Below are positions 460-19,774 of a stretch of DNA of 44,519 nucleotides, one piece after another; position 1 is the first letter of the stretch; the number at the start of each line of letters is the position of its first letter. The stretch lies in contig JAPPNV010000022.1 in assembly GCA_028818565.1 (NCBI GenBank), positions 1 to 44,519 of the forward strand, read 5' to 3'. The DNA is from Rhodospirillales bacterium (GTDB lineage Bacteria; Pseudomonadota; Alphaproteobacteria; UBA828). A model generated the notes under the pieces. That model ran no database searches and was not told the DNA's origin. It saw nothing but the letters and a program-made list of their open reading frames with translations. The translations under genes were made by a program, and so were the position numbers.

Positions 460-3081
460 TTACCAGCGCAACGCGCCGCGCAGCATCAGGCCACGCCCGG
501 GTCCGTCATCGATGGCGGCCTCGTACAGGCTGCCTTCAACGCTCACGCTCGCGGCCGGCGCAAGCTGCCAGCGCGCGCCCATGCGCCACCACTGCGCACC
601 TTCGCCCGCAAGCCCGAGCCCCGCATAGGGCGTCACCACGCCCATGCCGGGCGCCACGCCGAGACCGTAGCCGATCTCCGTATTCAGGCGCGCCTGGTTG
701 TCCGGTGACACGCCAGCAGTGACGCCATTCTCCCACAACCGGTTTACACCGCTGCCCGTCTGGCCCCACGCCGGCTGCACGACGAGCGCGAGACCCTGGC
801 CCGATGAGCCCGGTGCGATCCGCACCAGGCCGCTCACGCCCGTCTCCTCGTAGTCGCCGCTGTGGCTGAGCAGGGTCCGGACCCGGCCCTCGACGGTCAG
901 CCCCGACGCCGCGTCGGCATAGCGCAAAGCGCCCCCGGCCTCGATCCCGGTGCCGGTCTCGCCGTCCCCGCCGTCGTTGCGCAGGCCGAGCTCGAGCGAG
1001 GGCGTGAACGTCGCGCCCGCGTCGAGCTTCTGGACGTGCTCCCCTTCGAGCATCAGCCGCTGCCGGCTGGCACTCAGCGACATGCTCTCGAGGGTTCCGG
1101 AGCCGTCGATGTCGGCCGACGTGAAGGCCACCTCGCCCTTGAGGTTCAGGTTCGTGGTGCCGCCCGCGATCATCTCGTCGCTGGACATCAGCGGCCCGCT
1201 CACGCCTGCGGCGATCATCCGCTGCGTCAGGTCGCTCGACTGCGCGTCCGCCGCCTGGTCGTCGAGCTCAACCTCGCCCGAGCCGAAGCCGGCCACGGCC
1301 CACAGGTTCATGCCACCCGCCATCTGCCAGCCCACGTAGGGGTTGACGCTGGTCAGAGAGGTCGTGAGCTCGCCTGACGCGCTGGAGGCCATGTAGTCCA
1401 CGGTCCCGCGCGCCTGCGACACCGCCAGGCCCGCCAGCATGTCCGCGCCCAGCCGGGTGTCGATCCCGAGGTTGGCGCTGGTCACGCTGCCGTCATAGTC
1501 CACGGACTGCGGGTTGCCGCCGGAGATGCTGCGGTAGTCGCCGCTGCCCCAGAACGTGAGGTCTCCGAAGAGGCCGCTGCCCCCGTTGTCTGCAGCGTTG
1601 AGCGTCATGGTGAAGGAGGAATTCGCGAGCAGCCGGCTGAAGTCCAGCGTGCCGTCGCCCAGCGCGTGCCCGTTTGCCAGCAGGGCATCGGAGAGGGTGG
1701 AGGCGCCGCCGAAGCTGAACGCTGCGTCCGGCGCGATGTCGGAGGTTGCCCGCTCGATGCGGCTCGAGACGGCATCGACCGTGCTCGCGGTCATGGCCCG
1801 CATCACCTGAGGCAGCACAGCCTCGATGACCGCGTTTCCGCCTTCGGCGACCTCCTGGGACGCACTCCCGTAAAAGCCCGAGCCGACGATGATGTCGACC
1901 GGGATTGTGCGCCCGTCCGGCGTTTGGATTTGGCCCTTGAATTCGCGGGCATAGCCCACCTTGGGAATGTCGGCGCTATCGGTGTGGTCCGCGGGATCGT
2001 CGAAGTAGTAATCCACGAAGCCGCCGTCCACACTGCCTCTCGCCGCTGCGATAACCTGCGGCAGAATGTACTGTCCAGTACGGACGTCTTTGACGGTCGG
2101 TACAAGAGGCCGATTCTCGAATCTGTCCGGGAACGCTCCGTGAAACAGGATTGTTCCCTGAGGAGGATCGGCGTCAGGATCCGTAAGATTCAGGACGTAG
2201 AGGTACACGGAACCATGCCGCCAAGGCCCGGTCGGATCGCGCAAGGCGATCTTCAATTTCGAGGCAGCGGTTAGATCGCCGGCCCTCTGGACTTCAAGGA
2301 AGTAATTTCCCGCTTCCGTGACGAAGGCCTTCAGAGTTTCTCGGTCCATCACGTCCTCGGCCCTTGTGGCCGGGGTAACGTGTTCGATTGTCTCCGAAGC
2401 CAAGTGAGACTCGTCAAGATCGAACCCCGCGAGCAGCACGATCGGAGACCTGAGTTCGCGCGAGACATAGACGGCGGCATAGCCGGAAGCACCGGGTATG
2501 CCCGGACTCAAGCCTGGTATAGGAGCTGTCGCATCGAACGAAGCATCCGGTTCTTGCGACAATGTGGCAACGACGGCTTGGTAAGCGGAGCCGGCGACAG
2601 CAGGATCGGGAGACGCCAAGTTAAACAAGTCGGCTTGGGAGACACCCAGCGCAGAAAGAATCTGCCCATAAATCACGGGGTTGAGCAGCCCGCCCGACAG
2701 CGACATGTCCTTCGCGTGAATGAAGACTCGGCCGTCGAGCGTCAAGGTCACGATGTAGGTGTCACCGGAACGCCAAATCCCATTATCCTGCCTAATCGCG
2801 CATCCGATATAGAGCCCCTCTTCCACGGTGGTGGCCTGTTGGGCATGCTCAACGGACCGCTCTCTCACGGCCAACGCGAAGTCCATCAAGCTGGCGCCGC
2901 GGTCTGTTACATCTTCCGCCGTCACACGTGGATTCTCAGGAGGGGTCAAACCGGGAGAGAGTGGGCATTCGCTCTCCGTCTGCGCCGAGGCGGGGACCGC
3001 ATTGGCAAAGACGACGGCCAGCCCAAGAAGGCCGACCGCTAGAAACGAATAAAATCTGGTTTTCCATGTCGCGGTGTTCAT
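460..3081 (-). CDS. Autotransporter with two Cache-like sensor domains in the passenger
   Basis: The 873-residue protein starts with a signal peptide (hydrophobic core about 10-28, cleavage near ASA-Q at 31-34). Residues about 55-225 resemble a Cache fold, with a strand-turn-strand DTYIVTLTLDGRVFIHA. Residues about 240-405 look like a second, clearer Cache_2-type domain: DGGFVDYYF, PKVGY and the closing VGSGFYG follow that family's usual order. A helical stretch (410-450) leads into a barrel from about 490 with WGSGDYRS and alternating amphipathic strands. The last residues, LRGALRW, end in an aromatic as outer-membrane barrels do. The expected fate is export to the periplasm, barrel insertion and display of the Cache pair outside the cell. 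The ligand is unknown. The gene is monocistronic, with its own leader hairpin and terminator. The passenger half has visibly lower GC than the barrel half. Barrel call is confident; Cache calls rest on motif recognition. Confidence 0.82.
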   Translation of the reverse strand: MNTATWKTRFYSFLAVGLLGLAVVFANAVPASAQTESECPLSPGLTPPENPRVTAEDVTDRGASLMDFALAVRERSVEHAQQATTVEEGLYIGCAIRQDNGIWRSGDTYIVTLTLDGRVFIHAKDMSLSGGLLNPVIYGQILSALGVSQADLFNLASPDPAVAGSAYQAVVATLSQEPDASFDATAPIPGLSPGIPGASGYAAVYVSRELRSPIVLLAGFDLDESHLASETIEHVTPATRAEDVMDRETLKAFVTEAGNYFLEVQRAGDLTAASKLKIALRDPTGPWRHGSVYLYVLNLTDPDADPPQGTILFHGAFPDRFENRPLVPTVKDVRTGQYILPQVIAAARGSVDGGFVDYYFDDPADHTDSADIPKVGYAREFKGQIQTPDGRTIPVDIIVGSGFYGSASQEVAEGGNAVIEAVLPQVMRAMTASTVDAVSSRIERATSDIAPDAAFSFGGASTLSDALLANGHALGDGTLDFSRLLANSSFTMTLNAADNGGSGLFGDLTFWGSGDYRSISGGNPQSVDYDGSVTSANLGIDTRLGADMLAGLAVSQARGTVDYMASSASGELTTSLTSVNPYVGWQMAGGMNLWAVAGFGSGEVELDDQAADAQSSDLTQRMIAAGVSGPLMSSDEMIAGGTTNLNLKGEVAFTSADIDGSGTLESMSLSASRQRLMLEGEHVQKLDAGATFTPSLELGLRNDGGDGETGTGIEAGGALRYADAASGLTVEGRVRTLLSHSGDYEETGVSGLVRIAPGSSGQGLALVVQPAWGQTGSGVNRLWENGVTAGVSPDNQARLNTEIGYGLGVAPGMGVVTPYAGLGLAGEGAQWWRMGARWQLAPAASVSVEGSLYEAAIDDGPGRGLMLRGALRW

Positions 3082-4169: not shown

Positions 4170-5735
4170 ATGTCGCGTGGTCCGGAACTTCCCTCCGTCA
4201 ATCAACTCGCCGCCATCGCTCAGGACTTCATGCTCGACATGACGCTTGAGGACGTGACGAACCAGCGCGAAGCCATGCGGGGCGCCATCGCGAGCCTGCG
4301 TCACATCGATGACATGCCGCAGGAACGCCCTGCCGTCGCCTATCCGCGCACGCCCGGCTACCGGCCGCACCCGGACGAGAACCCCTACAACGCCTGGTAT
4401 TGGCGGACCGAGGTCAAGGGCGCGGACTCAGGGCCGCTCGCGGGCGAGGAGATCGGCGTCAAGGACGTGGTCTCGCTGGCCGGCGTGCCGATGATGAACG
4501 GCTCGCGCGCCCTCGAAGGCTACGTGCCCACCATCGACGCCACCATCGTGACCCGCATGCTCGACGCGGGCGCCACCATTGTCGGCAAGACCGCGTGCGC
4601 CGACTTCTCGTTCTCTGGCGGCGGCCACACCAGCGGCTACGGCCCGGTGCGCAACCCGCGCAAGCCCACCCATTCGCCCGGCGGCTCGTCCAAGGGGAGC
4701 GCGGCAGCGGTGGCCGCAGGCGACGTGGCGATGGCGATGGGCGGCGACCAGGGCGGCTCGATCCGCATCCCCGCCTCCTGGTGCGGCGTGGTCGGCCTCA
4801 AGGCGACCTACGGCCTCATCCCCTATACCGGGTGCCTCGCGATCGAGATGACCCTCGATCACATCGGCCCGATGACGAACACGGTCGAGAACTGCGCCCG
4901 CATGCTCTCGGTCCTCGCCGGCCCCGACCCGCTCGATCCGCGCCAGCGGGGGGTGATCCCGGCCGACTACGTGCAGGACTACATGCCGGCGATCGGCGCC
5001 GGCTGCGAAGGCGTGCGGATCGGCGTGCTCACCGAGGGCTTCGGCCAGACCGAGGAGACCTGGCCCGAGTTCGGCCTGCCGGGGAGCGTGCCGGCGGTGG
5101 ACGATTCGGTCGGCGCCACGGTGCGCCGGCTGGAGGAGCGGGGCGCCCAGGTCACCGAGATCTCGGTGCCCGAGCATTATCACGGGCTCCGGCTCTGGTT
5201 CGCGATCGCGGCCGAGGGCGCGACCGAGTTCATGCTGAAGAACGGCGGGGTCGGCACCGGCTGGTTCGGCTACTACGACACGCAGTTTCTCGAGCATGCG
5301 TCGCGTGCCGCGAAGACCCGGCAGAACGACTATCCGCTCACCGTGAAGAACGTGCTCCTGCTGGGCGGGTACCTCAAGCGCTACTACCACGGCACCTACT
5401 ACGCGAAGGCGCAGAACCAGCGCGGGCGGCTGACCGCGGCCTACGACAAGGCGCTCGCCGACGTGGACGTGCTGGTGCTGCCGACCATTCCGCACCTGGC
5501 TGCGCCGATCCCGAGCCTGGATGCCGATTTCGGGGAGTACATGTCGCGCGCGCTCGGCATGATCAACAACACGCCCCAGTTCAACCTGACCGGCCATCCC
5601 GCGATCAGCGTGCCCTGCGGCGTGAGCGACGGCCTGCCCATCGGTTTCCAGATCGTCGGCCGGCACTTCGAAGACCTCACGGTGCTCAAGGTCGCTGACG
5701 CCGTGGAGAAGAGCGCGGATTGGCAGAGCGTGTAG
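4170..5735 (+). CDS. Amidase signature family hydrolase
   Basis: The 521-residue protein hydrolyses an amide bond using the Ser-cisSer-Lys triad of the amidase signature family. All three residues are present: Lys98 in GVKDVVSLAG, Ser173 in SPGGSSKGSAAAVAAG, and the nucleophile Ser197 in GGDQGGSIRIPASW, 24 residues after the cis-Ser as in well-studied members. The C-terminal part holds the usual NLTGHPAISVPCG segment. There is no signal peptide, so it is cytosolic. The N-terminal 70 residues form a helical extension. GAGG-type spacing before ATG 4170 supports the start. It is 46 bases upstream of a gamma-glutamyltransferase-like gene, and the neighbourhood points to catabolic amide use rather than GatA. 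The specific substrate cannot be told from sequence. Confidence 0.9.
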   Translation: MSRGPELPSVNQLAAIAQDFMLDMTLEDVTNQREAMRGAIASLRHIDDMPQERPAVAYPRTPGYRPHPDENPYNAWYWRTEVKGADSGPLAGEEIGVKDVVSLAGVPMMNGSRALEGYVPTIDATIVTRMLDAGATIVGKTACADFSFSGGGHTSGYGPVRNPRKPTHSPGGSSKGSAAAVAAGDVAMAMGGDQGGSIRIPASWCGVVGLKATYGLIPYTGCLAIEMTLDHIGPMTNTVENCARMLSVLAGPDPLDPRQRGVIPADYVQDYMPAIGAGCEGVRIGVLTEGFGQTEETWPEFGLPGSVPAVDDSVGATVRRLEERGAQVTEISVPEHYHGLRLWFAIAAEGATEFMLKNGGVGTGWFGYYDTQFLEHASRAAKTRQNDYPLTVKNVLLLGGYLKRYYHGTYYAKAQNQRGRLTAAYDKALADVDVLVLPTIPHLAAPIPSLDADFGEYMSRALGMINNTPQFNLTGHPAISVPCGVSDGLPIGFQIVGRHFEDLTVLKVADAVEKSADWQSV

Positions 5736-5781
5736 CGCACCCGGCGCCCGGCCCACGTTCAGGCGGCCGCGAGGTGCGGCC

Positions 5782-7344
5782 GTGACGGAGAGGCCGGAAC
5801 GCTGGCTCGTGCGCAAGCCGGCGGTGACGAGCGGCGGCGGGCTGGTCGCGACCCAGCACCAGGCCGCGTCCGAGGTCGGCGCGCGGGTGCTGGCCGACGG
5901 CGGCAATGCGGTGGACGCTGCCATCGCCGCAAGCCTAGCGCTGGCGGCGGTCGAGCCCTGGATGAGCGGGCTCGGCGGCGGCGGGTACATGCTCGTCCGC
6001 CCCGCAGGCGAGGCCCGGACGCACGCCGTCCGCTTCGGGATGGTGGCGCCGGGCGCGTTGGACCCGGCGGATTATCCGCTCACGGGTGAGGCCGGCGCGG
6101 ATCTGTTCGGCTGGCCGGCCGTGCTGGAGGATCGCAACCTGCGCGGCCCGCTCGCGGTTGCGGTGCCCGGGCAGGTCGCGGGCCTTGCGAAAGCCCATGA
6201 GCGTTTCGGCACTTGCAGCTGGGCCGACCTCGTGGCGCCCGCCTGCGCGCTGGCAGAGCGGGGCATGGAGGTGGACTGGCACGCCACCGTCGCGATCGCG
6301 GCGTCGGCGCCGGAGCTTGCAAGCGACACAGAGTGCGCCGCCGCGTATCTCGCGGACGGGTTCCCGCTGGCCACGCCATGGACCGGGGATGCGCCGCGTA
6401 TCCGGTTGGGCCGGCTCGCAGAGACCCTGCGCCGGCTCGCAGAGGCCGGGCCTCGGGACTTCTACACGGGCGAGATCGCGCAGGCCATCAGCGCCGACAT
6501 GGCGGCGCTCGGCGGGCGTCTCTCGGCGGCCGACCTGTCGGCTTGCGAGGCCCAGGTCGAGGAGGCGCCCGAGACCGGCTACCGCGATGCCCGGGTCAGG
6601 ACCGCACCGGGGCTGACCGCAGGGCCGACGCTCGTGGACGTGCTGGACCGTCTTGCCTCCTCGCTCGATCCGGGCGAGGCACCCGACGGCGAAGTCTACG
6701 TGGCTTACGCCGAGGCGCTGCAGGCGGCCTATGCTGAGCGGCTTAGGGGCATGGGCGCGGGCACCGAAGCCGACCGCGCGTCCTGCACCAGCCATCTCGG
6801 CGCGGCCGACCGGGACGGCACTGTCGTGGCGCTGACCCAGACCCTTCTCTCGCCCTTCGGCGCCAAGGTGATGTTGCCGCAAACCGGAATCCTGATGAAC
6901 AACGGGATCATGTGGTTCGACCCCCGGCCGGGAGGTCCCAATTCGATCGCGCCTGGCAAGCACCCGCTCTCCAACACGTGCCCGACGATCGTCGAGATGG
7001 CGGACGGCCGGCGTGCGGCGCTCGGCGCTTCCGGCGGTCGCCGCATCCTGCCCGCCGTCGCGCAGCTGCTCTCCTTCCTCGTGGACTTCGACATGAGCCT
7101 GGACGACGCCGCGCACTGCCCGCGCATCAATGTGGACGGCGCCGACCTCATCGAGGCGGATGCCAGACTGCCGGCGGAGACGCTGGCCTCGCTGGAAGGC
7201 CGGTTCCCGCTCGCGGTACGCCCGCACGGCGTGCATCCATCCGCCTACGCCTGCCCCAACGCGGTCGTCTGGGAGCCTGCAAGCGGCACATCGACCGGCG
7301 CTGCCCACGTGATGTCCCCCAACGCCAGCGTCGGTGCACCGTGA
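5782..7344 (+). CDS. Gamma-glutamyltransferase family protein, cytosolic form
   Basis: This 520-residue Ntn-hydrolase family protein would be autocleaved before a catalytic Thr and then hydrolyse or transfer gamma-glutamyl groups. The N-terminal half carries the family opening GGGLVATQHQAAS and the SGLGGGGYML loop. The likely nucleophile is Thr336 in SCTSHLGAADRDG, corresponding to TTHxSVxD in classical enzymes; the second Thr is Ser here. LMNNGIMWFDP and LGASGGRR match the small subunit. Unlike typical periplasmic enzymes it has no signal peptide, so it should act in the cytosol. Start is GTG with GAGG eight bases upstream. It shares a strand and tight spacing with the amidase and the following racemase-superfamily gene. 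Family assignment is firm; the exact substrate (gamma-glutamyl amide, cephalosporin-like or other) is not. Confidence 0.85.
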   Translation: MTERPERWLVRKPAVTSGGGLVATQHQAASEVGARVLADGGNAVDAAIAASLALAAVEPWMSGLGGGGYMLVRPAGEARTHAVRFGMVAPGALDPADYPLTGEAGADLFGWPAVLEDRNLRGPLAVAVPGQVAGLAKAHERFGTCSWADLVAPACALAERGMEVDWHATVAIAASAPELASDTECAAAYLADGFPLATPWTGDAPRIRLGRLAETLRRLAEAGPRDFYTGEIAQAISADMAALGGRLSAADLSACEAQVEEAPETGYRDARVRTAPGLTAGPTLVDVLDRLASSLDPGEAPDGEVYVAYAEALQAAYAERLRGMGAGTEADRASCTSHLGAADRDGTVVALTQTLLSPFGAKVMLPQTGILMNNGIMWFDPRPGGPNSIAPGKHPLSNTCPTIVEMADGRRAALGASGGRRILPAVAQLLSFLVDFDMSLDDAAHCPRINVDGADLIEADARLPAETLASLEGRFPLAVRPHGVHPSAYACPNAVVWEPASGTSTGAAHVMSPNASVGAP

Positions 7345-7363
7345 CGCCGGAACGGAGAAATCC

Positions 7364-8122
7364 ATGAGCAATCACACGCGCCTGGGCATGATCACGCCGT
7401 CGCTCAACACTGTGCTGGAGCCCGTGACCTATGCCCTGCTTGCGGACCTGCCCGACGTGACGGCGCATTTCAGCCGGGTGCGGGTGTCCCAAATTTCGCT
7501 CGGCGAGGATTCGGCGGCCCAGTTCGGCGACGAGCCCATGCTCGCTGCCGCGCGCATGCTGGCCGACGCCCGCGTCCACGCGATCTGCTGGAACGGCACC
7601 GCCGGCAGCTGGCTCGGCCCCGACTTCGACCGCCGGCTCTGCCAGGCGATCGCGCGCGAGACCGGCATTCCGGCGACGAGTGCGACACTGGCGCTGGCCG
7701 AGCTCTTCCGCAGCCGGGGCGTCAAGCGCTTCGCTCTGGTTACGCCGTTCGAGGATGCGCTGCAGGAGGCCATCGTCGAGACCTACGGGCGCGAAGGCTT
7801 CGAGTGTGTGGCCGAGCGACACCTCGACAGCGACGATACCTTCGGCTACGCGTCCATCCCGCCGGCGACGACCGAAGGGATGATCCGGGACGTGGTCGGC
7901 GCGGAGCCCGAGGCAATCGCTGCGGTCTGCACGAACCTGAACGGCGCGCCCCACGCAGAGGCGCTGGAGGCGGAATGCGGCCGGCCTGTCTACGACAGCG
8001 TGGCGGCGGCGCTGTGGGGCACGCTCGCGCTCGCCGGCGCGGACCCCAGCCGCATCGCGGGCTGGGGCGAGATATTCTCCGTAGCTCCGGCTTCGCTGGA
8101 GCGCCTCGGCGCCCGTCCCTAG
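7364..8122 (+). CDS. Asp/Glu racemase superfamily protein, arylmalonate decarboxylase/maleate isomerase-like
   Basis: ATG 7364 is chosen because GGAGA lies just upstream; an upstream in-frame GTG at 7334 would overlap the previous gene. The 252-residue protein opens with LGMITPSLNTVLEP, as in maleate isomerase and arylmalonate decarboxylase. Racemases and isomerases use two Cys. Here the first position is Gly78 (in NGTAGSWLG) while the second, Cys189 (in VCTNLNG), is kept. In Bordetella arylmalonate decarboxylase the same positions are Gly74 and Cys188, so a one-base decarboxylase-type mechanism fits better than racemisation. It is cytosolic and likely cotranscribed with the amidase and GGT genes. 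Its TAG stop overlaps the convergent aminotransferase stop at CTAG (8119-8122). Confidence 0.8.
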   Translation: MSNHTRLGMITPSLNTVLEPVTYALLADLPDVTAHFSRVRVSQISLGEDSAAQFGDEPMLAAARMLADARVHAICWNGTAGSWLGPDFDRRLCQAIARETGIPATSATLALAELFRSRGVKRFALVTPFEDALQEAIVETYGREGFECVAERHLDSDDTFGYASIPPATTEGMIRDVVGAEPEAIAAVCTNLNGAPHAEALEAECGRPVYDSVAAALWGTLALAGADPSRIAGWGEIFSVAPASLERLGARP

Positions 8123-9051
8123 GCGCTCGCGGCCTGTTCCTCCTCGGGCTCCAGCAGGTCGGCCACCGGAATCGAGTGCCAACCGTCGGCGCGCTTGGCC
8201 CAATAGAGGTCGGAGAGCCGGCCGGTGGTGATGCCCGGCGCGCCGTTGCCGATGGGCTTGTCGTTGACCCGGACGACCGGGACAACCCCACCGGCCGACG
8301 AGGAGATGAAGACCTCGCCGGCGTTCTCCAGGTCTTCGGCCTTGAGGTCGGTAGCCTCGGCTTCGAGACCGATGTCCTGACAGAGGTCGAACACGGTCTT
8401 GCGGGTGATCCCCTCCAGCAGGTTGTCGCCGGGAGTGAGCGCCTTGCCGTCCCGGATGATCCAGACGTTGAAGCCGGGGCCTTCCGTGACATAGCCGTCG
8501 GTCGAGAGAAGCACGGGCTGGTCCGCGCCGGCGTCGAGCGCCTCGAAATGGGCGGCGGTCAGGTCCATCCGGTTGAAATTCTTGCACCGCTGGTTGATGG
8601 CGGCGTCGGGTGCGCGGCGGTTCTGGGCGATCCAGAGGTGCGCGCCCGACTTCATCTTGGGCTCGGCGACGATGGTGAAAAAGGGCACCGCATAGGCGAT
8701 CAGCTCGTTCTCGGCGGTTCGCGGATCACCGAACGCGGCGCCGCCGGCATAACGCCCGCGGGTGCAAAGCACGAAAACGATTGATTCGGTGAAGCCCGCG
8801 CGATGGGCGCATTGCGCCATGATGCTCCTGATCTGCGCATCGGGCAGCGGCGGCGTAAGGCGGACGTGCTCGCACGAGGCGTAGAAGCGCTCCATGTGAT
8901 CGTCGAGCCGGAAGAACGCGCCGTCACACACCGTAACCGCGTCGAACACCACGTCGCTCTTGTGGAACGCCGGGTCGAGGATGGGCACCGACGCCTCCTC
9001 GATCGGCATGAATTGTCCGTGGCAATAGGCGATTCCCTTCGATTCCGACAT
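8119..9051 (-). CDS. Class IV (branched-chain type) PLP aminotransferase
   Basis: The 310-residue protein belongs to fold-type IV aminotransferases, which include branched-chain, D-amino acid and aminodeoxychorismate enzymes. Lys157 in RCKNFNRMDL is the expected PLP lysine, and Glu190 with GPGFNVWI fits the cofactor loop EGxGxNxF. SSSAGGVVPV matches the phosphate-binding turn. ATG 9051 is preferred over an upstream candidate because AGGGAGG lies eight bases before it. The gene points against its neighbours: its stop overlaps the upstream racemase-like gene, and its start is 167 bases from the divergent cold shock gene. It may transaminate the amino acid released by the amide-degrading enzymes nearby, but that is inference. 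Confidence 0.88.
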   Translation of the reverse strand: MSESKGIAYCHGQFMPIEEASVPILDPAFHKSDVVFDAVTVCDGAFFRLDDHMERFYASCEHVRLTPPLPDAQIRSIMAQCAHRAGFTESIVFVLCTRGRYAGGAAFGDPRTAENELIAYAVPFFTIVAEPKMKSGAHLWIAQNRRAPDAAINQRCKNFNRMDLTAAHFEALDAGADQPVLLSTDGYVTEGPGFNVWIIRDGKALTPGDNLLEGITRKTVFDLCQDIGLEAEATDLKAEDLENAGEVFISSSAGGVVPVVRVNDKPIGNGAPGITTGRLSDLYWAKRADGWHSIPVADLLEPEEEQAASA

Positions 9052-9218
9052 GGTTGCGGCCTCCCTGGCGGCATTGCGCAATTCGTCGCGGACGGTACGG
9101 CGGTGCGGCCCTCGCCGTCAATGTCTGGCGTTTCGGGCCCAGGAACGCTTTCGGAGAAATTCGCACCCAAGCGTGCGAAAACCGCAGAATCGGATGGGGA
9201 GGCGGCGCGGAAGCCGCT

Positions 9219-9839
9219 ATGATGGGCCATCTAAACGAAGCGGGGGAACCCGCCGAAGCGCCCGTCTCACAGAAAACAAGTTGGTCCATCATGTCAGACA
9301 TCGGTTCGCCGCCCAGCGAAGGCGACTCAATCACGGCTCAGGTCAAGTGGTTCAACCCGACCAAGGGGTTCGGCTTTCTCGTGCCCGACGACGGCTCGCC
9401 AGACGTCTTTTGCCACGTTTCGGCGGTCGAGCGGGCGGGCTTCGACACGCTGCCCCAGGGAGCCACCGTCAGTTGCGAGATCGTGCAAGGGCAAAAGGGC
9501 CCGCAGGTCTCGCAAATCCTCAACGTCGACACCTCGACCGCGACCGTCATGCCGCCTCGGGGCGACCGACCGCGCCGCCCCGCTCCCGGAGGCTACCAGG
9601 CCCGGCGCTTCAACGAGCCCATGGGCCCGACCGAAGAGATCGAAGGCACGGTCAAGTTCTACAACGTCGGCAAGAGCTATGGCTTCGTCACGCCGGACAG
9701 CGGCGGGCAGGACGTGTTCATCCATGCCAAGGTCCTCGCCCGCTCCGGCCTCGACGACCTGGAGCCTCAGCAGCGCGTGCGGCTGGAGATCACGCAAGGC
9801 CCGCGTGGGCCGCAGGCGACCAGCGTCGAGCTGATCTGA
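9219..9839 (+). CDS. Cold shock protein with two CSD domains
   Basis: A 206-residue protein with two cold shock domains joined by a basic Pro/Arg-rich linker (about 110-135). Domain 1 (38-103) has RNP1-like KGFGFL and RNP2-like DVFCHV; domain 2 (141-204) has KSYGFV and DVFIHA. It should bind single-stranded RNA or DNA as a chaperone, as double-CSD proteins of alphaproteobacteria do. Two adjacent ATGs at 9219 and 9222 follow GGGGAGG at a rather long distance; ATG 9291 (MSDIGSPP) is a realistic alternative start. The long leader (9052-9218) is shared with the divergent aminotransferase and may hold a cold-responsive structure, though none was traced. Confidence 0.9.
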   Translation: MMGHLNEAGEPAEAPVSQKTSWSIMSDIGSPPSEGDSITAQVKWFNPTKGFGFLVPDDGSPDVFCHVSAVERAGFDTLPQGATVSCEIVQGQKGPQVSQILNVDTSTATVMPPRGDRPRRPAPGGYQARRFNEPMGPTEEIEGTVKFYNVGKSYGFVTPDSGGQDVFIHAKVLARSGLDDLEPQQRVRLEITQGPRGPQATSVELI

Positions 9840-9924
9840 GGCTGACTATCGGCGCGCGGCCCGCCCCGGCAGGCCGCACCGCCGGACGCTACAAGGGGCC
9901 CTGCCCCGCCACAGGCCGGCCGCG

Positions 9925-11739
9925 ATGATACGGAATCCGGTCGCCACGCCCATCCTCGCGCGCCGTTTCGACGCGATCGTGCGCGAGATGTCGAACGCGC
10001 TGCTGCGCTCGGCGCGCTCCAGCGTCATCGCCGCCGCCAAGGATTTCTCTTGCGTCCTCCTTACTCATGACGATCGGCTCATCGCCGCCGCCGAGGGCCT
10101 GCCCGTGCACGTGCTCGGGTGCCACCTGCAGACCCGTTCAATGCGTACCCTTCATCCGGACCTGCGGGAAGGCGATGCGTTTCTGCACAACGATCCCTAC
10201 CTCGGCAATACCCATGCGGCCGATCACGCCATTCTGGTGCCGGTCTTCATCGACGGCGTGCACATGTTCACCGCCTGCGCCAAGGCCCATCAGGCCGACA
10301 TCGGCAACAGCGCGCCCACCACCTACCACGCCTTCGCCCGCGACGTGTACGAGGAAGGGGCGCTCATCTTCCCCTGCGTCCTCGTGGAGCGCGGGGGTGC
10401 GATCAACGACGATATCGTCCGCATGTGCGAACGGCGCATCCGGGTGCCGGAACAGTGGCGCGGCGACTTTCTCGCGCTGGTCGGCGCCGCGCGGATAGGC
10501 GAGCGGCGCCTCAAGGAGCTGTGCAGGACGCTTGGAGCCGAGGCTGTTGCGACCTCCGTCGAAGACTGGCTGGACTATTCCGAGCAGCGCATGGCACGGG
10601 CGATCGCGAGGCTGCCGGACGCATCGCTGGTCTCGGAAAGCGCGCACGATCCGGTGAGCCCTATCTTGCCCGACGGCATTCCGGTCAGGGTCGGAATCCA
10701 GGTGGACCCGAGCGCAGCCAAGATCGCGGTCGATCTGCGCGACAACATCGATTGTGTCGATTGCGGCCTGAACCAGACGGAGGCCTGTTGCCTCGCGCAC
10801 GTCTTCACGGCGATCTTCAACTGTCTCGACGACGACGTGCCGCGCAACGAGGGCGCGTTTCGCCGCGTCGAAGTGCTGATGCGGAACGGCTGCGCGGTCG
10901 GGCGCCCGGCCTTCCCCCATAGTTGCTCGGTTTCGACCACGAATGTGGCCGAGCGCCTCATCTACGCCATTCACAGCGGCTTCGCGCGTCTCGGCGAGGG
11001 AAGAGGCCTCGCCGAAGGCTCGGCAAGCATGGGCGGTGCGATGGCCGTGATCTCCGGCGCCGATGCCCGCCGGGGCGGGGCCCCCTTCGTCAATCAACTG
11101 TTCCTCGGGGTCGGTGGCGGCCCTGCCGCCCCCGATGCTGATGGGTGGCTGACCTATTGCCTGCCGACGGCGGCGGGCCTGGTTCACCTGGATAGTGTTG
11201 AGATGGTGGAGAGCCGCTATCCGATCGCCGTCGATTCAGCACGCATCGTCGCCGGCACGGGCGGCGCGGGGCGCTGGCGTGGCGCGCCCGCCACCGAGGT
11301 CGTCTATGGCCCGACGCACGGCACCGTCACCGCCATCATCCCGTCGGACGGTCACCATGTCGCACCGCGCGGTGCGCGTGGGGGCGGCGATGCGACTGTT
11401 GGCCGAACCGCCAGGATCGACTGCGGCGGCCGAGAGACCGTGCTTCCAAATTTCGTGCAACTCACGCTCAAGCCCGGCGAGCGGTTGCGGGCGGTGGAAG
11501 GCGGCGGGGCCGGCTACGGCGACCCGCTTGTGCGCGATCCGCAGCGCGTGCTGCAGGACGTGGCGGAAGGCTGGGAAACCCGAGACCGCGCGCTGGACGT
11601 CTATGGCGTCGTTCTTTCGGAGCCGGGCGGCGGTAGCCCGCTTACCGTCGACGAGCCGGCGACCCAGGCCCGGCGGCAGTCGCTCACTCGGCGCGGACGG
11701 TGCGCCGGCGAGAGAGAACCGATCCGATCACCATCATGA
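9925..11739 (+). CDS. hyuB: Hydantoinase B / oxoprolinase family B subunit
   Basis: The 604-residue protein matches the B subunit of ATP-dependent N-methylhydantoinase, 5-oxoprolinase and acetophenone carboxylase-type enzymes. Family motifs include AKDFSCVLLTHDDRL (39-53), HNDPYLGNTHAADH (residues about 88-101), and the C-terminal GGxGRWRGAPATE and GGGAGYGDP segments. It normally pairs with an ATPase A subunit to open cyclic amides such as hydantoins or 5-oxoproline. No A subunit gene occurs in this window, so the partner must be elsewhere or the protein works alone. No signal peptide. The last 56 bases overlap the convergent EamA gene, and the C-terminal tail (from about residue 585) is Arg-rich and probably non-conserved. 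It closes the amide/hydantoin block. Confidence 0.88.
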   Translation: MIRNPVATPILARRFDAIVREMSNALLRSARSSVIAAAKDFSCVLLTHDDRLIAAAEGLPVHVLGCHLQTRSMRTLHPDLREGDAFLHNDPYLGNTHAADHAILVPVFIDGVHMFTACAKAHQADIGNSAPTTYHAFARDVYEEGALIFPCVLVERGGAINDDIVRMCERRIRVPEQWRGDFLALVGAARIGERRLKELCRTLGAEAVATSVEDWLDYSEQRMARAIARLPDASLVSESAHDPVSPILPDGIPVRVGIQVDPSAAKIAVDLRDNIDCVDCGLNQTEACCLAHVFTAIFNCLDDDVPRNEGAFRRVEVLMRNGCAVGRPAFPHSCSVSTTNVAERLIYAIHSGFARLGEGRGLAEGSASMGGAMAVISGADARRGGAPFVNQLFLGVGGGPAAPDADGWLTYCLPTAAGLVHLDSVEMVESRYPIAVDSARIVAGTGGAGRWRGAPATEVVYGPTHGTVTAIIPSDGHHVAPRGARGGGDATVGRTARIDCGGRETVLPNFVQLTLKPGERLRAVEGGGAGYGDPLVRDPQRVLQDVAEGWETRDRALDVYGVVLSEPGGGSPLTVDEPATQARRQSLTRRGRCAGEREPIRSPS

Positions 11740-12594: not shown

Positions 12595-13785
12595 TCAGGT
12601 TGCGGTGCGGCTCTGCCCGCGCCCTGCGCCGGCTTCGATCAGGCTCAGGACCGCCCCGGCTGCACGCTCGCTCGGCGGCGGCCCGCCGCGCCCCAGCAGG
12701 GCGGCGATCTCGCGAAAGCTCTCGATCTGCTCGCGGCGGCGGTCGGAATCGAGCAGCAGCTCCTCGACTGCGGGGACCAGACGCCTCGGAGAGCATCGGC
12801 GCTGCACGAACTCCGGCGCCGCGCGGCGGTCGGCGATGATGTTGGGCATGGCGATGTGCCGTACCAGGAGGATGCGCTGCGCGATCGCCGCGGTGAGCGG
12901 ATTGGCCCGATAGCAGACGATCATGGGTATGCCGGCGAGCGCGAGCTCCAGCGTCGCCATGCCGGAGACCGTGAGCGCCGCGTCGCTGGCGGCGAAGGCG
13001 GCGTATTTATCGGCCTTGCCCTCCACCACGGTCACGGGTGCGGCCCACGACGCGGTCTTGGCGGTCACGACAGCGCGGTTCTGCGGCAGCGTCGGCACCA
13101 GGATTCGGAGCCCCTCGACGCGGCGCGCCAGCGCGCGCACGGTCTCTCCGAATACCGGCTCGTGCCGGCGCAGCTCGCTGGCGCGGCTGCCCGGCAGGAC
13201 GGCGAGCACCGGTTGGTCGGGCGCGAGGCCGTGGCGCCGGCGGAAGTCCGACCCGTCGGCGCTTTCGATGGGCTCCTCCACCAGGGGATGGCCGACGAAG
13301 CTCGCGTCCAGGCCCTCGGCCTCGAAGTAGGGCGGTTCGAACGGGAAGAGGCAAAGCACGTGGTCGAGATAGCGCGCGATCTCGGCCGCGCGCCCCGGCC
13401 GATAGGCCCAGACGGTGGGTGCCACGTAGTGAACCAGGGGAAAGCCTGCGCCCTTCAGCTTTCGTGCGACCCGGAGCGCAAATCCCGGCACGTCGACCGA
13501 GACGAAGGCCGCCGGCCGCAACCGGCGGGCCCTGCGCGCCGTGGCCCGAATGCGCCCGAGCATCCGAGGCACGTGGGGGACGACCTCGAGCAGCCCCATC
13601 AACGACAGCTCGGTGTAGGGAAACTGGCTCTCCAGCCCCTGCTCGGCCATGAGCGGACCGCCGATTCCGGCGAACCGGACCCGGTCGCCGGTGCGCCGCT
13701 TGAGCGCCGCCATCAGGCGGGAAGCGATGAGGTCGCCGGACGGCTCGCCGGCGATCAGGAAGATCAGCGGCGCGTCGCGCTCCAT
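12595..13785 (-). CDS. lpxB: Lipid-A-disaccharide synthase
   Basis: LpxB joins UDP-2,3-diacylglucosamine to 2,3-diacylglucosamine-1-phosphate (lipid X) to form the disaccharide core of lipid A at the inner membrane. The 396 residues match family length. Recognisable segments are the opening FLIAGEPSGDL, FAGIGGPLM, VSVDVPGFALRVARKLK, HYVAPTVWAYRPGRA, FVGHPLVEE and VLPGSRASELRRHEPVF. The C-terminal part has SGMATLELALAGIPMIVCY, the nucleotide-sugar binding region of GT19. It starts eight bases after lpxI and is followed eight bases later by the EamA gene. The substrate is made by LpxI, encoded next door. Confidence 0.97.
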   Translation of the reverse strand: MERDAPLIFLIAGEPSGDLIASRLMAALKRRTGDRVRFAGIGGPLMAEQGLESQFPYTELSLMGLLEVVPHVPRMLGRIRATARRARRLRPAAFVSVDVPGFALRVARKLKGAGFPLVHYVAPTVWAYRPGRAAEIARYLDHVLCLFPFEPPYFEAEGLDASFVGHPLVEEPIESADGSDFRRRHGLAPDQPVLAVLPGSRASELRRHEPVFGETVRALARRVEGLRILVPTLPQNRAVVTAKTASWAAPVTVVEGKADKYAAFAASDAALTVSGMATLELALAGIPMIVCYRANPLTAAIAQRILLVRHIAMPNIIADRRAAPEFVQRRCSPRRLVPAVEELLLDSDRRREQIESFREIAALLGRGGPPPSERAAGAVLSLIEAGAGRGQSRTAT

Positions 13786-13793
13786 TCCGCCCG

Positions 13794-14615
13794 TCAGCTC
13801 ACGCCGACCATGAACACGCCCTGCTCGTCGGCGCGCGCGACCGCCTGATCGCGCTCCAGGATCAGCGTCTCGCCGGCCTCGACCGCGACCCCCCGGAAGC
13901 CGGCTTGGGCCAGCCTCTCGATCGTGTCCGCCCCGATGGTCGGCAGGTCGGCCCGACGCTCCTGACCGGGCTTCTTCATCTTGACCAGCACGGCGCCCGG
14001 CCCCGCCTCCTGCAGCGCGGCGCAGCGTTCGATCAGCCCGTCCGTCCCTTCGACGCCTTCGACGCCGAGCACGCGGCCGGCCTGCACGACCACGGCCTGC
14101 CCGATGTCCTGCGCGCCAAGGGCGCGCGCAGCCTCGATGCCGACGGCGATGTCGCGCTCGGAGTCTTCGTCGGGTGCGCGGCGACCGATCACGCCGGCGG
14201 GCGCGCAGAGCGTTGCAATCAGGTCGTCGGCGCCGACGACGGTGAAGCCCTCGTCTTCAAGCTCGGCGATCACGAGGGAAAGGAGTGTGTCGTCACCCGC
14301 GGCTTTCGCGCGGGCGATACGCCCCATGAGGCGCATGCCGCGCAGGTCGACCTTGAGGGAGGAGAGGGAGGGCCGGCGGATCGAGCCGGCAAGCACTACC
14401 TCGCGGCAACTCGCTTGCCTCAACGCCTTCAGCAAGGCGCCGACCGCGCCGAGCCCGAGCCAGCGGTGGGGGACGCCCGCGCAGGTCGCGGGGTCTGTCT
14501 CGCCCTCAAAGGCGATGACCAGGACCTCGCGGCCTTCGCCCCTGCAAGCCCGCGCGATGAGGCCCGGCAGCGGCCCGCCGCCGGCGATAATTCCCAGGCT
14601 ACTCGCCGCCATCAT
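13794..14615 (-). CDS. lpxI: UDP-2,3-diacylglucosamine pyrophosphatase LpxI
   Basis: LpxI hydrolyses UDP-2,3-diacylglucosamine to lipid X and UMP, replacing LpxH in alphaproteobacteria. The 273-residue protein shows the DUF1009 layout: LGIIAGGGPLPGLIA at the N-terminus, LGLGAVGALLKALR, VVLAGSIRRPS, GDDTLLSLV, and the C-terminal KKPGQERRADLPTIGADT. Asp223 in that last motif corresponds to the catalytic Asp known from the Caulobacter enzyme (position inferred). Its ATG lies inside the 3' end of lpxA, overlapping by 17 bases. Two Met codons open the frame (14615 and 14612), either usable. The presence of LpxI and absence of LpxH supports the alphaproteobacterial assignment. Confidence 0.95.
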   Translation of the reverse strand: MMAASSLGIIAGGGPLPGLIARACRGEGREVLVIAFEGETDPATCAGVPHRWLGLGAVGALLKALRQASCREVVLAGSIRRPSLSSLKVDLRGMRLMGRIARAKAAGDDTLLSLVIAELEDEGFTVVGADDLIATLCAPAGVIGRRAPDEDSERDIAVGIEAARALGAQDIGQAVVVQAGRVLGVEGVEGTDGLIERCAALQEAGPGAVLVKMKKPGQERRADLPTIGADTIERLAQAGFRGVAVEAGETLILERDQAVARADEQGVFMVGVS

Positions 14616-15399
14616 CGCGTGGTTGGCAAATCGAGCGCTCGCGATCGACCCGCATGAAGTCGACGATATCCATGACCGGCTCGTTGTCCTGGAACAGCTC
14701 GGTGACGTCCGCGAGACGCTCGATCATGGTCCCTTCCTGCGCGAAGAGCAGCCGGAAGGCCCGCCTGAGATCGTGGACGATGTCGCGGCTGAAGCCCCGG
14801 CGCTTGAGCCCGACGAGGTTGAGCCCGGTCAGGCGCGCGCGATCGCCCATGGCCGAGCCGTAGGGAATGATGTCGTGCTCGACCCCGGACATGCCGCCGA
14901 CGATTGCATGGCGCCCGATGCGGACGAACTGATGAATGCCGGAGAGGCCGCCGATAATGGCCCAGTCGTCGATCGTCACGTGGCCACCCAGCGTCGCATT
15001 GTTGGCCATGACGATATGGTCGCCGACGAAACAGTCGTGGGCGACATGGGTCGCGATCATGAACAGGCAGTGATTGCCCACGCGAGTCAGCATGCGGCCG
15101 TGGGGCGTCCCCGGATTCATGGTCACGTGCTCGCGGATGACGTTGTCCGCGCCGATCTCGAGGCGCGAGGGCTCGCCCCGATACTTGGTGTCCTGCGGCG
15201 GGTGGCCGATTGAGGCGAAGGGATAGATGCTGGTGCGCGGGCCGATCGCCGTCCGCCCGGTGACGACCGCGTGAGAGACCAACCGCACCTCATCGCCGAG
15301 GACGACGTTGGCACCTACGATGCAGTAGGGGCCGATGCTGACGCCTTCGCCGAGTTCGGCGCCAGGCTCGACGATCGCGGTCGGGTGAATGTCCGTCAC
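14599..15399 (-). CDS. lpxA: UDP-N-acetylglucosamine acyltransferase
   Basis: LpxA transfers a 3-hydroxyacyl chain from acyl carrier protein to UDP-GlcNAc, the first step of lipid A synthesis. The 266-residue protein has left-handed beta-helix hexapeptide repeats from residue 1 to about 185 and a helical C-terminal domain. The catalytic His is His121 in ATHVAHDC; His118 and His156 (GIHQFVRIG) are also kept. GLKRRGFS marks the helix transition. The start is GTG at 15399, one base after the fabZ stop, in keeping with translational coupling. It overlaps lpxI at its end. Confidence 0.97.
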   Translation of the reverse strand: MTDIHPTAIVEPGAELGEGVSIGPYCIVGANVVLGDEVRLVSHAVVTGRTAIGPRTSIYPFASIGHPPQDTKYRGEPSRLEIGADNVIREHVTMNPGTPHGRMLTRVGNHCLFMIATHVAHDCFVGDHIVMANNATLGGHVTIDDWAIIGGLSGIHQFVRIGRHAIVGGMSGVEHDIIPYGSAMGDRARLTGLNLVGLKRRGFSRDIVHDLRRAFRLLFAQEGTMIERLADVTELFQDNEPVMDIVDFMRVDRERSICQPRDDGGE

Positions 15400-15400
15400 G

Positions 15401-15871
15401 TCAGGTATCTTCCAGAATCATTGCCGAGTATGTGGCTTCCGCGACCGCCTGGCCGTCGACTTCGGCCCTGGCCTCGAACTTCCACACGTTCCGGCGGCGG
15501 TGCTTCTTGGTCACGTGAATGAAGAGCTGATCGCCCGGCACCACGGGCCGGCGGAAACGGCAGTTCTCGACCGACATGAAATAGACGAGCTTGCCGGCCA
15601 TGGCGGGCCCGAGGGTCGCCACCACCAGCACGGCCGCGCTTTGCGCCATCGATTCGATGACCAGCACACCCGGCATGACCGGCATGCGCGGAAAGTGCCC
15701 GTGGAAGTACGATTCGTTGATCGACACGTTCTTGATGCCGACCGCGCTCACGTCGGGGATCACGTCGATCATGCGGTCGATCATGAGGAACGGATACCGG
15801 TGGGGGATCGCATTGAGGATCTCCTCGATATCCATGCGCTCCACCGTTTGTTGCGGTGCTGCGTCGTTCAT
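15401..15871 (-). CDS. fabZ: 3-hydroxyacyl-ACP dehydratase FabZ
   Basis: FabZ dehydrates 3-hydroxyacyl-ACP in fatty acid elongation and so competes with LpxA and LpxD for the same acyl-ACP pool. The 156-residue hot-dog protein keeps the catalytic pair His59 in [14 protein letters not shown] and Glu73 in [10 protein letters not shown]. The start ATG at 15871 shares bases with the lpxD stop (ATGA). A much longer frame running upstream is only the lpxD region in another register. Its place between lpxD and lpxA is the standard proteobacterial order. Confidence 0.97.
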
Positions 15872-16896
15872 TCCGGGGCCGCCTTGCCTCTTGCCAGCCG
15901 CGCCAGATGCGCGCTTTGACGGTGCCATTGGCGGATCGGCACGGCGGGCGTGCCGCCGTAGGTCCCGCCCGGCTCGATGTCGCGGGTGACGCCGGCCTGG
16001 CCGGCGAGCCGGACGCCGTCGCCGACTGTACGGTGATCCGCAACGCCCACCTGGCCCGCGATCTGAACGAAGTCGCCCACCCTCGCGCTGCCGGCGACCG
16101 CGCTTTGGGCCGCGATCACGCTGCCCCGCCCGATGCGGACGTTGTGGGCGATCTGCACCAGATTGTCGATGCGGCATCCTTGGGCGATCACGGTGTCGGG
16201 GCCGGATCCGCGGTCGATGGTCGTGTTGGCACCGATCTCCACGTCGTCCTCGATCAGGACACGGCCAAGCTGCGGAATCTTCACATGGCCGCCCCGATCG
16301 ATCGCGAAGCCGAAGCCCTCCTGGCCGATCCGCACGCCAGGGAAGATCACCACCCGCGCGCCGACCAGGCAATGGCTGAGCGAGGCGCAGGCCCCGATCC
16401 TTGTATCGTCGCCAATTTCGACGGCAGTTCCGATGACGACGTTGGTTCCGATGAGGCAGCGGGCGCCGATGACGGCTCCGGCGCCGATGACGGCGCCGGC
16501 CTCGACCCGGCATCCGGTGCCGAGAACCGCCGCGGGATCGATCACCGCCGCAGAATGCACCCCCGGCTCAAGCGGCGGAACCGGATGAAACAGCTGGGCG
16601 GCCAGCGCGAAGGACTTGTAGGGGTTGTCGCTGGTCAGAACCGCCACGTCCGCGGGCGCGCGGTCCGCCAGGGAAGCCGGCGCGATGCAGGCGCCGGCAC
16701 GGCAGGCGGCGAATGCTTCGACATACTTGAGATTGGCGAGAAAGCTCAGGTGCTCGGCCGTGGCCTGATTGATTGGGGCCACGTCGGACAGCCGTTTTGC
16801 CGGGTCAGCGCCCGCCGCGAGTTCTGCCCCCGCGGCCTCGGCGATTTCAGCCAACGTGAACGGCCCCGCCACGGCGTAAAAGCGCGGATCGGGCAT
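15868..16896 (-). CDS. lpxD: UDP-3-O-(3-hydroxyacyl)glucosamine N-acyltransferase
   Basis: LpxD adds the second 3-hydroxyacyl chain to the glucosamine nitrogen in lipid A synthesis. The 342-residue protein has the N-terminal uridine-binding domain (about 1-105, with [12 protein letters not shown]) and a long hexapeptide-repeat beta-helix (about 110-320). His251 in [13 protein letters not shown] is the expected catalytic base, and the [14 protein letters not shown] loop is typical. The ATG shares its first base-pair region with the ompH stop (TGATG overlap), and the stop overlaps the fabZ ATG. Confidence 0.97.
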
Positions 16897-17456
16897 CAGT
16901 TCTCGTCGAACGTCAGCACGATCTCGGGATACGCCTCGTTCAACCGTTCGATCACCATGTCGGTCAGATTGAACTCGGCGGCGGCGAATATCGTCTCGTG
17001 AACCGGCAGCACGAGATCAATTCCCTGCTCGGTCGCGACCTCTCCGACGACGATGCCGAGGACTTCGCGAAAGCGAATCTCGCCTTCAGTCACGGCGCGC
17101 TGCAGGATTTCGCCGCGCGCTTTCGCTCTCTGGTCCGCTGTCGAGACTTCGGCGTTGAAGGCGCGCTGGCGCTCCTCCAGTACCGCGGGCGTGAGCAGCG
17201 TCGCCTGCTGTTGGAGCTCGTCGCGCACGCCGCGCAGCCGCTCCGACTCTCGCTGCGTATCTTCGGCGTAAGACTTGCGCTGCGCTTCGCCCTGGGTCCG
17301 GATCGAGTGAATCGCCGTCGCTTCGCTGAGAACCCGCACCATCTCGATGACGGCGACACGCGTCCCGTGTTCATCGGCCCAAACACTTGTGTTGCTGCCG
17401 ACCGCGCAGGCGACGGTCAGCGCGAAGAGGAGCCAGAGCCGCCTCCATCCCTGCAT
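16896..17456 (-). CDS. OmpH/Skp family periplasmic chaperone
   Basis: A 186-residue secreted protein with a signal peptide (hydrophobic core about 6-20, cleavage near VWA-D at 25-28). The mature part starts with [11 protein letters not shown], the conserved Skp/OmpH strand, followed by a long Gln/Glu/Arg-rich helical stretch (about 50-120) that would form the tentacle coiled coil, then a closing segment [12 protein letters not shown]. Skp trimers hold unfolded outer-membrane proteins for delivery to BamA, whose gene ends two bases upstream. The protein is slightly longer and more divergent than E. coli Skp, as usual in alphaproteobacteria. Confidence 0.88.
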
Positions 17457-17458
17457 CT

Positions 17459-19774
17459 CTAAAACCTCGTTCCGAAGCTGAATCGGAAGTTCTCGGTCAC
17501 ATCGAAGTCTTCCTTGATCAGCGCTCGCGAGAAGTCCAGCCGGATCGGACCGATCGGCGAACGGAATCTGAGCCCGACGCCAACCGAGAGCCGCGGCGAG
17601 GCCTCGTCCAGGAGCTCCGTCCCCGAAGCGTCGATCTCGGTGAGGCTGCCGATATCGGTGAAGATTGCGCCCCGCAGGTCGAGCTCTTCAGCCAGCCCCA
17701 GCGGAAAGGTCAACTCGCCCGTGATCGAATAGAATAGATTGCCGCCGAGCGCATCGCCGGTCTCCGCATCGCGCGGGCCCACGCCGCTCGGCTCGAAGCC
17801 CCGGAGACTGGTGCCGCCGAGGAAGAACCGGTCGACGATTCCCACGTCGTCGTCAAGGCCGACGACGTAGCCACTACGAAGCAACCCGCTCAGAATCCAT
17901 CCATCGGCTAGCGAGAAGTAGTGGCCGTAGCGAAGGGTGTGCTTGATGTACCGGTTGTCGCCGCCGAGTCCGGCGAGCCCCTGTCCGAAGCGGACGACAT
18001 ATCCTTCGGTCGGGTCAATGATGCTGTCGCGCAGATCGTAAGTCAGCCTGTGCGAGACGGCCGAGGTGGTCGTTTCGCCTTCCTGCTCGCGGATGAATCG
18101 CGACGAGGTCTCGGAGACGTCGCTGACTTCGTCGCTCTTTAGCGTGTAGGAGACTGAATGCCGCAACCGCTCTGACAGTGGATAGCCTACCCGCAACGAA
18201 AAGCCGATGGTGTCGCGATCGAAAGAACTCTCGTCCTGCAGGTCGATTGTCCTGTTGAATACGTCGAATCCCGCCGCGACGTCGCGTTCCATGAAGTAGG
18301 GCTCGGTGAAGCTCAGGTCGATCTCCTGCCGGCGGGACGAGGCCGTGAGGCCGAGCTTGAGATCCTGCCCCTGGCCGAGAAGATTGCGCTCGCGGATGGC
18401 AATGTCGCCGAGCACACCTTCCGTCGATGAGACACCGGCGCCGAAGCTGAGCTCGCCCGTGGGGACCTCGCTGACCTCCACCGTGAGGATCGAGCGATCC
18501 GGCGCCGATCCCTCGCCGGTGCTGATGTCGACCCTGTCGAAGTAGCCGAGGTTCATGATGCGCTGTCGCGAGCGGCGAATCAGGGCCGAGCTGAAGGCGT
18601 CCCCCTCCACCAGCCGGAACTCGCGGCGGATCACCTCGTCGAGGGTGCGGACATTGCCCACGATGTCGATGCGTTCGATATAGACCCGCGGGCCCTCGTC
18701 GATCTCGAACGTGAGGTCGACGGTCCTCGCCTCGCGGTCTCGCTCGACGCGGGGCTGGACGTCGACGAACGCGTAACCGCGGCTGCCGACGACTTCCGTG
18801 AGCGTGACCAGCGTATCCTCGACTTGCTCCGCGTCGTACCATTCGCCCGCCTCGATCTCGACGACGGGGCGCAGCTCGTCCGGTTCCAGATCCCGTAGCT
18901 GGCTTTCGATATCGATGGCGGCTACCCGATAACGCTCCCCCTCCTCCAGCGAGAAGGTGACGATGAAATCGCTGCGGTCGGGCGTCAGCTCGGCGACTGC
19001 CGAGACGACACGAAAGTCGACGTAGCCGTTGGCGAGGTAGAACCGGCGGAGCAATTCGCGGTCGAAGGTCAGCCGGTCGGGATCGTATGTGTCGGCGGTG
19101 GTGGCGAAGCGATACCACGCGCTTTCCCGGGTCTGGATGACGTCCCTGAGAGCGCTGTCGCTGAAGTGGGCGTTGCCGACGAAGTTGATCCGCCGGATGC
19201 CCGTAACCGGCCCCTCGTTCACCTCGAAGACGAGATCGACCCGGTTTTGCGGAAGCTGGATGACCTTGGGCTCGATGGTGGCGGCGAAGCGGCCGCTGCG
19301 CCGGTAGATGTCAGTCAACCGCTGCAGGTCCGACTGCACCCGCGGCCGGGTGTAGACCACACGCGGTTGAAGCTGAATTTCCGCCTCCAGATCGTCGTCC
19401 TGGATCGCGTCGTTACCTTCGAAGAGCACGCGATTGATGATCGGGTTCTCGACCACACGAACGATCAGGGCATTTCCCTCGCGCCTGATGGCCACATCGG
19501 CGAACAGGCCGCTCTCGAACAGACTCTTCAGAGACTCGTTGACCGCGTCGGCATCGAACGCATCGCCGGGGCCCAGCGCCATGTAGGACCGCACGGTGTC
19601 CGCTTCGATGCGCTCGTTGCCCTCGACGAGCACGGACTCGAGCGTCTGCGCCTGCGCCGCAGCGGCACCCATCCACATGCCGAGGATCACCGCCGCCAGC
19701 CAGACGACGTGCCGCATCCGGCGCCTTGCACCTGCCGCTTTCGCTCCGCGCATCTGCCTTTCTCGCTGGGTCAT
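17459..19774 (-). CDS. bamA: Outer membrane protein assembly factor BamA
   Basis: BamA is the barrel-inserting core of the BAM complex. The 771-residue protein has a signal peptide (hydrophobic core about 23-40, cleavage near AQA-Q), five POTRA repeats (about 44-440) seen in the recurring xxVxGNxR/E openings, and an Omp85 barrel to the end. GGTSLRGFEP carries the LRGF version of the conserved VRGF loop-6 motif, and the last residue is Phe after SFGTR. ATG 19774 overlaps the rseP stop (ATGA); Met8 and Met20 are possible alternatives because the Arg-rich first 20 residues precede the signal core. A longer frame through rseP is spurious. It would also insert the autotransporter encoded at the left end. 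Confidence 0.96.
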   Translation of the reverse strand: MTQRERQMRGAKAAGARRRMRHVVWLAAVILGMWMGAAAAQAQTLESVLVEGNERIEADTVRSYMALGPGDAFDADAVNESLKSLFESGLFADVAIRREGNALIVRVVENPIINRVLFEGNDAIQDDDLEAEIQLQPRVVYTRPRVQSDLQRLTDIYRRSGRFAATIEPKVIQLPQNRVDLVFEVNEGPVTGIRRINFVGNAHFSDSALRDVIQTRESAWYRFATTADTYDPDRLTFDRELLRRFYLANGYVDFRVVSAVAELTPDRSDFIVTFSLEEGERYRVAAIDIESQLRDLEPDELRPVVEIEAGEWYDAEQVEDTLVTLTEVVGSRGYAFVDVQPRVERDREARTVDLTFEIDEGPRVYIERIDIVGNVRTLDEVIRREFRLVEGDAFSSALIRRSRQRIMNLGYFDRVDISTGEGSAPDRSILTVEVSEVPTGELSFGAGVSSTEGVLGDIAIRERNLLGQGQDLKLGLTASSRRQEIDLSFTEPYFMERDVAAGFDVFNRTIDLQDESSFDRDTIGFSLRVGYPLSERLRHSVSYTLKSDEVSDVSETSSRFIREQEGETTTSAVSHRLTYDLRDSIIDPTEGYVVRFGQGLAGLGGDNRYIKHTLRYGHYFSLADGWILSGLLRSGYVVGLDDDVGIVDRFFLGGTSLRGFEPSGVGPRDAETGDALGGNLFYSITGELTFPLGLAEELDLRGAIFTDIGSLTEIDASGTELLDEASPRLSVGVGLRFRSPIGPIRLDFSRALIKEDFDVTENFRFSFGTRF

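Follow-up and report, generated by a model that had tools for sequence, protein, structure and literature searches.

In the 44,519-nucleotide stretch of Rhodospirillales DNA analysed here as a whole (the window), a minus-strand ORF at 460–3081 encodes a protein of 873 aa that carries two tandem Cache-type domains as the passenger of an outer-membrane autotransporter barrel. The passenger recurs across bacterial phyla, and its C-terminal anchor varies with the phylum of the carrier while the passenger itself stays the same. The most economical reading is that of a binding module lacking an output of its own. We consider it probable that this module, recruited from a sensory fold and circulating horizontally, is displayed at the cell surface and binds a ligand or a host.

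Domain architecture and the Cache assignment

The ORF starts with ATG, contains no internal stops and is kept at full length in congeners. Its product begins with a signal peptide (residues 1–33; 2983–3081), which has a hydrophobic core and no lipobox, ends in AVPASA before Q34 (QTESEC) and reads as type I; nearly all relatives have a similar N-terminus. There follow a passenger of ∼370 residues, made up of domain 1 (residues ∼52–236; 2374–2928) and domain 2 (residues ∼237–409; 1855–2373), a helix (residues 407–446; 1744–1863) at the usual place of the pore-plugging helix of autotransporters, and a C-terminal outer-membrane barrel (463–1560) with strands at residues 508–871 and the terminus GALRW, all encoded on the minus strand. 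The TM helix pair and the output domain of membrane-bound Cache receptors are missing from the ORF, with the barrel in their place. The original prediction of a signal peptide, a C-terminal barrel and a short helical linker between the barrel and the Cache-like domains was confirmed; a non-barrel C-terminus had been named beforehand as evidence against it, and a barrel was found instead. The survey proposed at the same time found the same architecture in congeners and in Nitrospirota, Myxococcota and Gammaproteobacteria, and because it is conserved in these lineages we exclude a chance arrangement.

The Pfam autotransporter profile PF03797 matched residues 510–628 with 34 bits (cut-off 26), and a full-length model of modest confidence (pTM 0.47 for the whole chain) placed the 40-residue helix ahead of ∼18 strands. 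The motif RAMTASTVDAVSxRI of the helix region is kept in relatives. Fold matches include the autotransporters EstA and EspP, but also larger TonB-dependent barrels; comparison of the barrel profile with PDB sequences gave chance hits only. Classical autotransporters have 12 strands, and the higher count modelled here comes from a low-confidence model. Related barrels are found behind other passengers across the genus, in frames of up to 4413 aa.

Passenger and barrel diverge independently. Compared with L107, the barrel is 80% identical and the passenger 58%, whereas compared with L034 the values are 60% for the barrel and 69% for the passenger. L009 (G000:C102) is a second copy of the gene in the window's own genome, with a passenger only ∼50–75% identical to that of the window; the DNA encoding residues 651–850 (window 532–1131) is 100% identical between the two over 600 bp, which may reflect either conversion between the barrel genes or a merge during assembly. 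In L005 and L017 (G006), the passengers hit contig ends just past GWLARFGRV, as if repeated barrel sequence had broken the assembly.

Judged by profile scores, membership of the passenger in the Cache group appears borderline for the window protein and firm for the family. The dCache_2 profile PF08269 (Pfam cut-off 26.5) scored 26.9 bits on the window passenger alone and 24.2 bits, just under the cut-off, on the whole protein. It matched all eight passengers examined from the genus, and domain 2 matched it in 26 of 28 diverse family members (E ≤ 0.01). An AlphaFold2 model of the passenger, built on an alignment of 77 sequences (mean pLDDT 86.7, pTM 0.83), consists of two modules in series with the same order of elements, namely two helices, two strands, a helix and three strands, with an extra helical insertion in domain 1. 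In a Foldseek search, whose output does not tell which of the two modules matched, the top PDB match was 2QHK/4EXO, an sCache_2 domain from a chemoreceptor of Vibrio (probability 1.00, TM 0.64–0.65 on the target); PAS proteins scored lower, as did the chemoreceptor domain of H. pylori TlpA. Comparison of the passenger with PDB sequences gave zero matches, and these relatives surfaced by fold comparison only. The passenger profile also picked out, from an unrelated member of the same class, a chemoreceptor that contains an sCache-like domain. BLASTP aligned domain 2 with that domain (E 3e-6), the shared positions being the conserved H, KD, GGFV.Y and PK..YAR; in domain 2, H314, D332, K374 and R379 are invariant across phyla.

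Domain 2 is thus clearly a relative of sCache_2/dCache_2, by Pfam, by fold and by alignment with the chemoreceptor. Domain 1 is probably also a Cache domain, by its homology to domain 2 as a duplicate and its predicted topology. The two domains were aligned by hhalign at 95.4% (E 2e-8) over the N-terminal 69 columns only, and the family alignment has C94, R97, H122 and M126 as invariant or nearly invariant residues of domain 1. No Pfam Cache model, nor anything else credible, matched domain 1 alone in any of the 28 members. Cache domains had originally been placed at residues 55–225 and 240–405; these boundaries nearly agree with ours, at ∼52–236 and 237–405, and the second call is borne out by three lines of evidence while the first rests on duplication and topology. 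Structure prediction with a fold search, and profile searches with the Cache and autotransporter models, had been suggested as checks, and the outcome of each agrees with the architecture proposed. A predicted fold unlike Cache had been named as the other refuting outcome, and the passenger fold does match Cache.

Spread and anchoring of the passenger

The passenger recurs in 187 places among GTDB species genomes, and we read 78 of these loci. By their NCBI labels they belong to at least seven phyla, namely Pseudomonadota, Gemmatimonadota, Latescibacterota, Acidobacteriota, Binatota, Nitrospirota and Myxococcota, with one further locus titled Aminicenantes; the relatives are 46–68% identical to the window passenger. 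The family is rare in the window's own class, where 6 of 385 genomes gave a match at E 1e-10, one of them being the sCache-like chemoreceptor. Phyla interleave on the passenger tree, with at least 21 changes of phylum, and Pseudomonadota as a single clade was rejected at a cost of 505 log-likelihood units (p-AU 3e-53). The passengers closest to that of the window come from Binatota, Alphaproteobacteria and Latescibacterota.

We then assigned the anchors by motif, with HMM confirmation for representatives. All 31 Pseudomonadota rows, the window included, have the autotransporter linker, plus the barrel where the contig continues, and the same holds for Nitrospirota and Myxococcota. A T9SS type A sorting tail is present in 14 rows from Latescibacterota and Gemmatimonadota; in L036 the corresponding domain, TIGR04183, scored 44.8 bits (cut-off 23). 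In four rows from these two phyla the chain is longer, with one or two more double-Cache units before a linker and barrel. Acidobacteriota have four more single Cache repeats, or another tail, and Binatota a short tail. The T9SS translocon SprA was found in eight of eight genomes bearing the sorting tail and in none of four with other anchors, and the tailed relatives in Latescibacterota and Gemmatimonadota therefore have the features of T9SS cargo, a type A sorting domain in a genome that encodes SprA. Because the same passenger is kept on T9SS and other extracellular tails, the conserved property appears to be its place outside the cell rather than the barrel. Surface display, as judged from these anchors, is well supported.

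The relatives are MAG contigs except for two complete chromosomes (L099 and L101), and some of the phylum labels may be binning errors. Such errors are unlikely to explain the main pattern, because anchor type tracks SprA and because of those two chromosomes. Phage carriage found no backing, since none of 81 pattern hits in viral contigs was a relative. The window passenger has a GC content of only 59.2, compared with 71.0 in the barrel, which was considered as a signal of transfer and dropped: passenger GC follows that of the flanks across 73 loci (r 0.75) and lies below tail GC in 53 of 54, and we therefore take it to be compositional. The best reading of the distribution is that the passenger spreads by horizontal transfer and is re-anchored in each lineage.

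Some carriers hold many Cache modules. In L057, L058, L060 and L063, all from Acidobacteriota, the double-Cache unit and the four single repeats make six modules in one secreted chain. The complete Latescibacteria chromosome of L101 (G409) has 12 matches to the passenger profile, and at ∼1.60 and 1.80 Mb it has arrays of small ORFs, of 186–376 aa, that resemble solo Cache proteins.

Tandem arrays and multi-Cache repeats, like the different rates at which passenger and barrel diverge, are what might be expected of a structural adhesin or a shield, an antigenic coat whose fold no longer binds small ligands. We regard this as improbable, since the polar residues H314, D332, K374 and R379, which occupy positions shared with the sCache_2 chemoreceptor, are invariant across phyla, and a shield would not need them.

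Genomic context and function

We searched 12 carrier genomes (that of the window and 11 others, two of them complete chromosomes) for the MCP signalling domain and found it in none, with a search that was positive in 7 of 14 control genomes. Together with the T9SS and other extracellular tails on relatives, this supports the earlier proposal of surface display with no cytosolic output. Nearly everywhere else Cache domains act as sensors (PMC4822843), and the predicted barrel exceeds the classical size, as might suit a receptor at the surface that sends signals inwards by way of its barrel, like the TonB-dependent transducers. It is nevertheless very unlikely that the passenger works in this way: T9SS-tailed or anchorless passengers have no barrel to signal through, FecR-like, sigma or kinase genes were not found as conserved neighbours across loci, and MCP domains are absent from the carriers tested. 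Both a sensor acting through the barrel and a protein for ligand capture had originally been put forward, and with T9SS-tailed passengers that have no barrel the former fits less well, and ligand capture or binding better.

Apart from its own tandem copies, the family has no dedicated neighbour that is conserved across loci; the remaining conserved neighbours are generic ABC and ligase genes, and none is a transporter specific to the family loci. In the window, 4170–11739 contains genes for an amidase, a gamma-glutamyltranspeptidase, an arylmalonate decarboxylase/Asp-Glu racemase-like protein, a class IV aminotransferase and hydantoinase B, a cluster for amide or amino-acid catabolism. We did not accept this cluster as a functional partner. 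Further along, 12595–21085 encodes LpxB, LpxI, an LpxA-like protein, a FabA-like ORF, LpxD, OmpH/Skp and BamA, a cluster for lipid A and outer-membrane assembly; the BamA gene lies at 17459–21085, in a frame of 1208 aa that is overlong at its N-terminus.

A passenger with a nutritional role, which captures a carboxylate or an amino acid at the surface and passes it on to a porin or a transporter, would be in keeping with its closest solved relatives, which are sCache_2 domains, with the weak match of the extra Acidobacteriota repeats to MctS, a sensor whose name indicates a monocarboxylate-type regulator, and with the amidase, glutamyltranspeptidase and hydantoinase genes nearby in the window. 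Those genes, however, lie ∼1.1 kb away and on the other strand, no locus-specific transporter is among the conserved neighbours, and a tethered binder with no partner would gain little in uptake. We consider such scavenging unlikely.

Our preferred reading remains a surface module whose function is probably binding itself. Sec would export the protein via its signal peptide, and the BAM complex, of which the window encodes BamA, would insert the C-terminal barrel into the outer membrane, so that the N-terminal passenger, with its two tandem sCache_2-type domains, ends outside the cell. There the usual pocket of the Cache domains may accommodate either a small molecule or some exposed portion of a molecule from the sponge or matrix, and such binding may keep the bacterium in the sponge, let the sponge recognise it, or serve local capture. 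Signalling through the barrel is presumably absent. On this reading a sensory fold has been turned to extracellular binding, and the module re-anchored in each lineage.

Known Cache proteins and the sponge habitat

The passenger shares with the sCache_2/dCache_2 receptors (PF17200, PF08269; Vibrio parahaemolyticus 2QHK/4EXO) the fold, the long N-terminal helix and the order of motifs H, KD..TG, GGFV.Y, PK..YAR and GSGFY. Like dCache_2, which is described as a tandem duplication of sCache_2, it consists of two homologous modules. In contrast to these receptors, the passenger protein has neither TM helices nor an output domain and is held beyond the outer membrane. With the type Va autotransporters EstA (3KVN) and EspP (2QOM) it has in common the signal peptide, the N-terminal passenger, the helix and the PF03797 barrel, but their passengers are a beta-helix or an esterase, whereas here a globular alpha/beta pair of sensor domains is carried. 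Extracellular Cache domains with no output domain in the same chain occur in the alpha2delta subunits of animal voltage-gated calcium channels; these differ in being eukaryotic channel subunits with a VWA domain.

The survey that defined the Cache domains found them in signalling proteins and described them as the largest superfamily of prokaryotic extracellular sensors. It took as given that every Cache domain identified so far belonged to a protein with an output signalling domain, and met SMP_2 as the sole exception (PMC4822843). Our literature search found no paper that combined Cache domain, autotransporter and passenger. Because the profile, the fold and the duplication are those of Cache receptors and the output domain is missing, we view the Cache domains here as surface-displayed binding modules.

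Many carriers are traceably from sponges, the source being verified for part of the MAG series only. Two relatives, MPMV bin56 and MPMT bin52, belong to the MAGs recovered from Aplysina aerophoba, a sponge (PMC5649159), and the prefixes RHO, IRC and COS, to go by the names, agree with Rhopaloeides, Ircinia and Coscinoderma, sponges of another series (PMC8163846). In sponge-associated Thaumarchaeota, Cache domains are enriched and host recognition has been proposed (PMC7848895). What those organisms share with the carriers is surface Cache domains in a sponge symbiont, but they are archaea, and the architectures of their Cache proteins are not described there. We tentatively suggest, as a possibility rather than an expectation, that one sensor-derived extracellular module has spread horizontally among sponge symbionts of many phyla, has been re-anchored per lineage and binds one host-derived molecule, as a shared surface factor of symbiosis.

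In this family, Cache domains stand apart from signalling: export systems unrelated to one another display them, and the carriers tested lack the MCP domain. With ∼370 residues, the domain pair is directly expressible and can be screened for ligands. If the link to sponges holds up against seawater genomes, the family would be a tangible candidate for the means by which unrelated symbionts encounter a common host.
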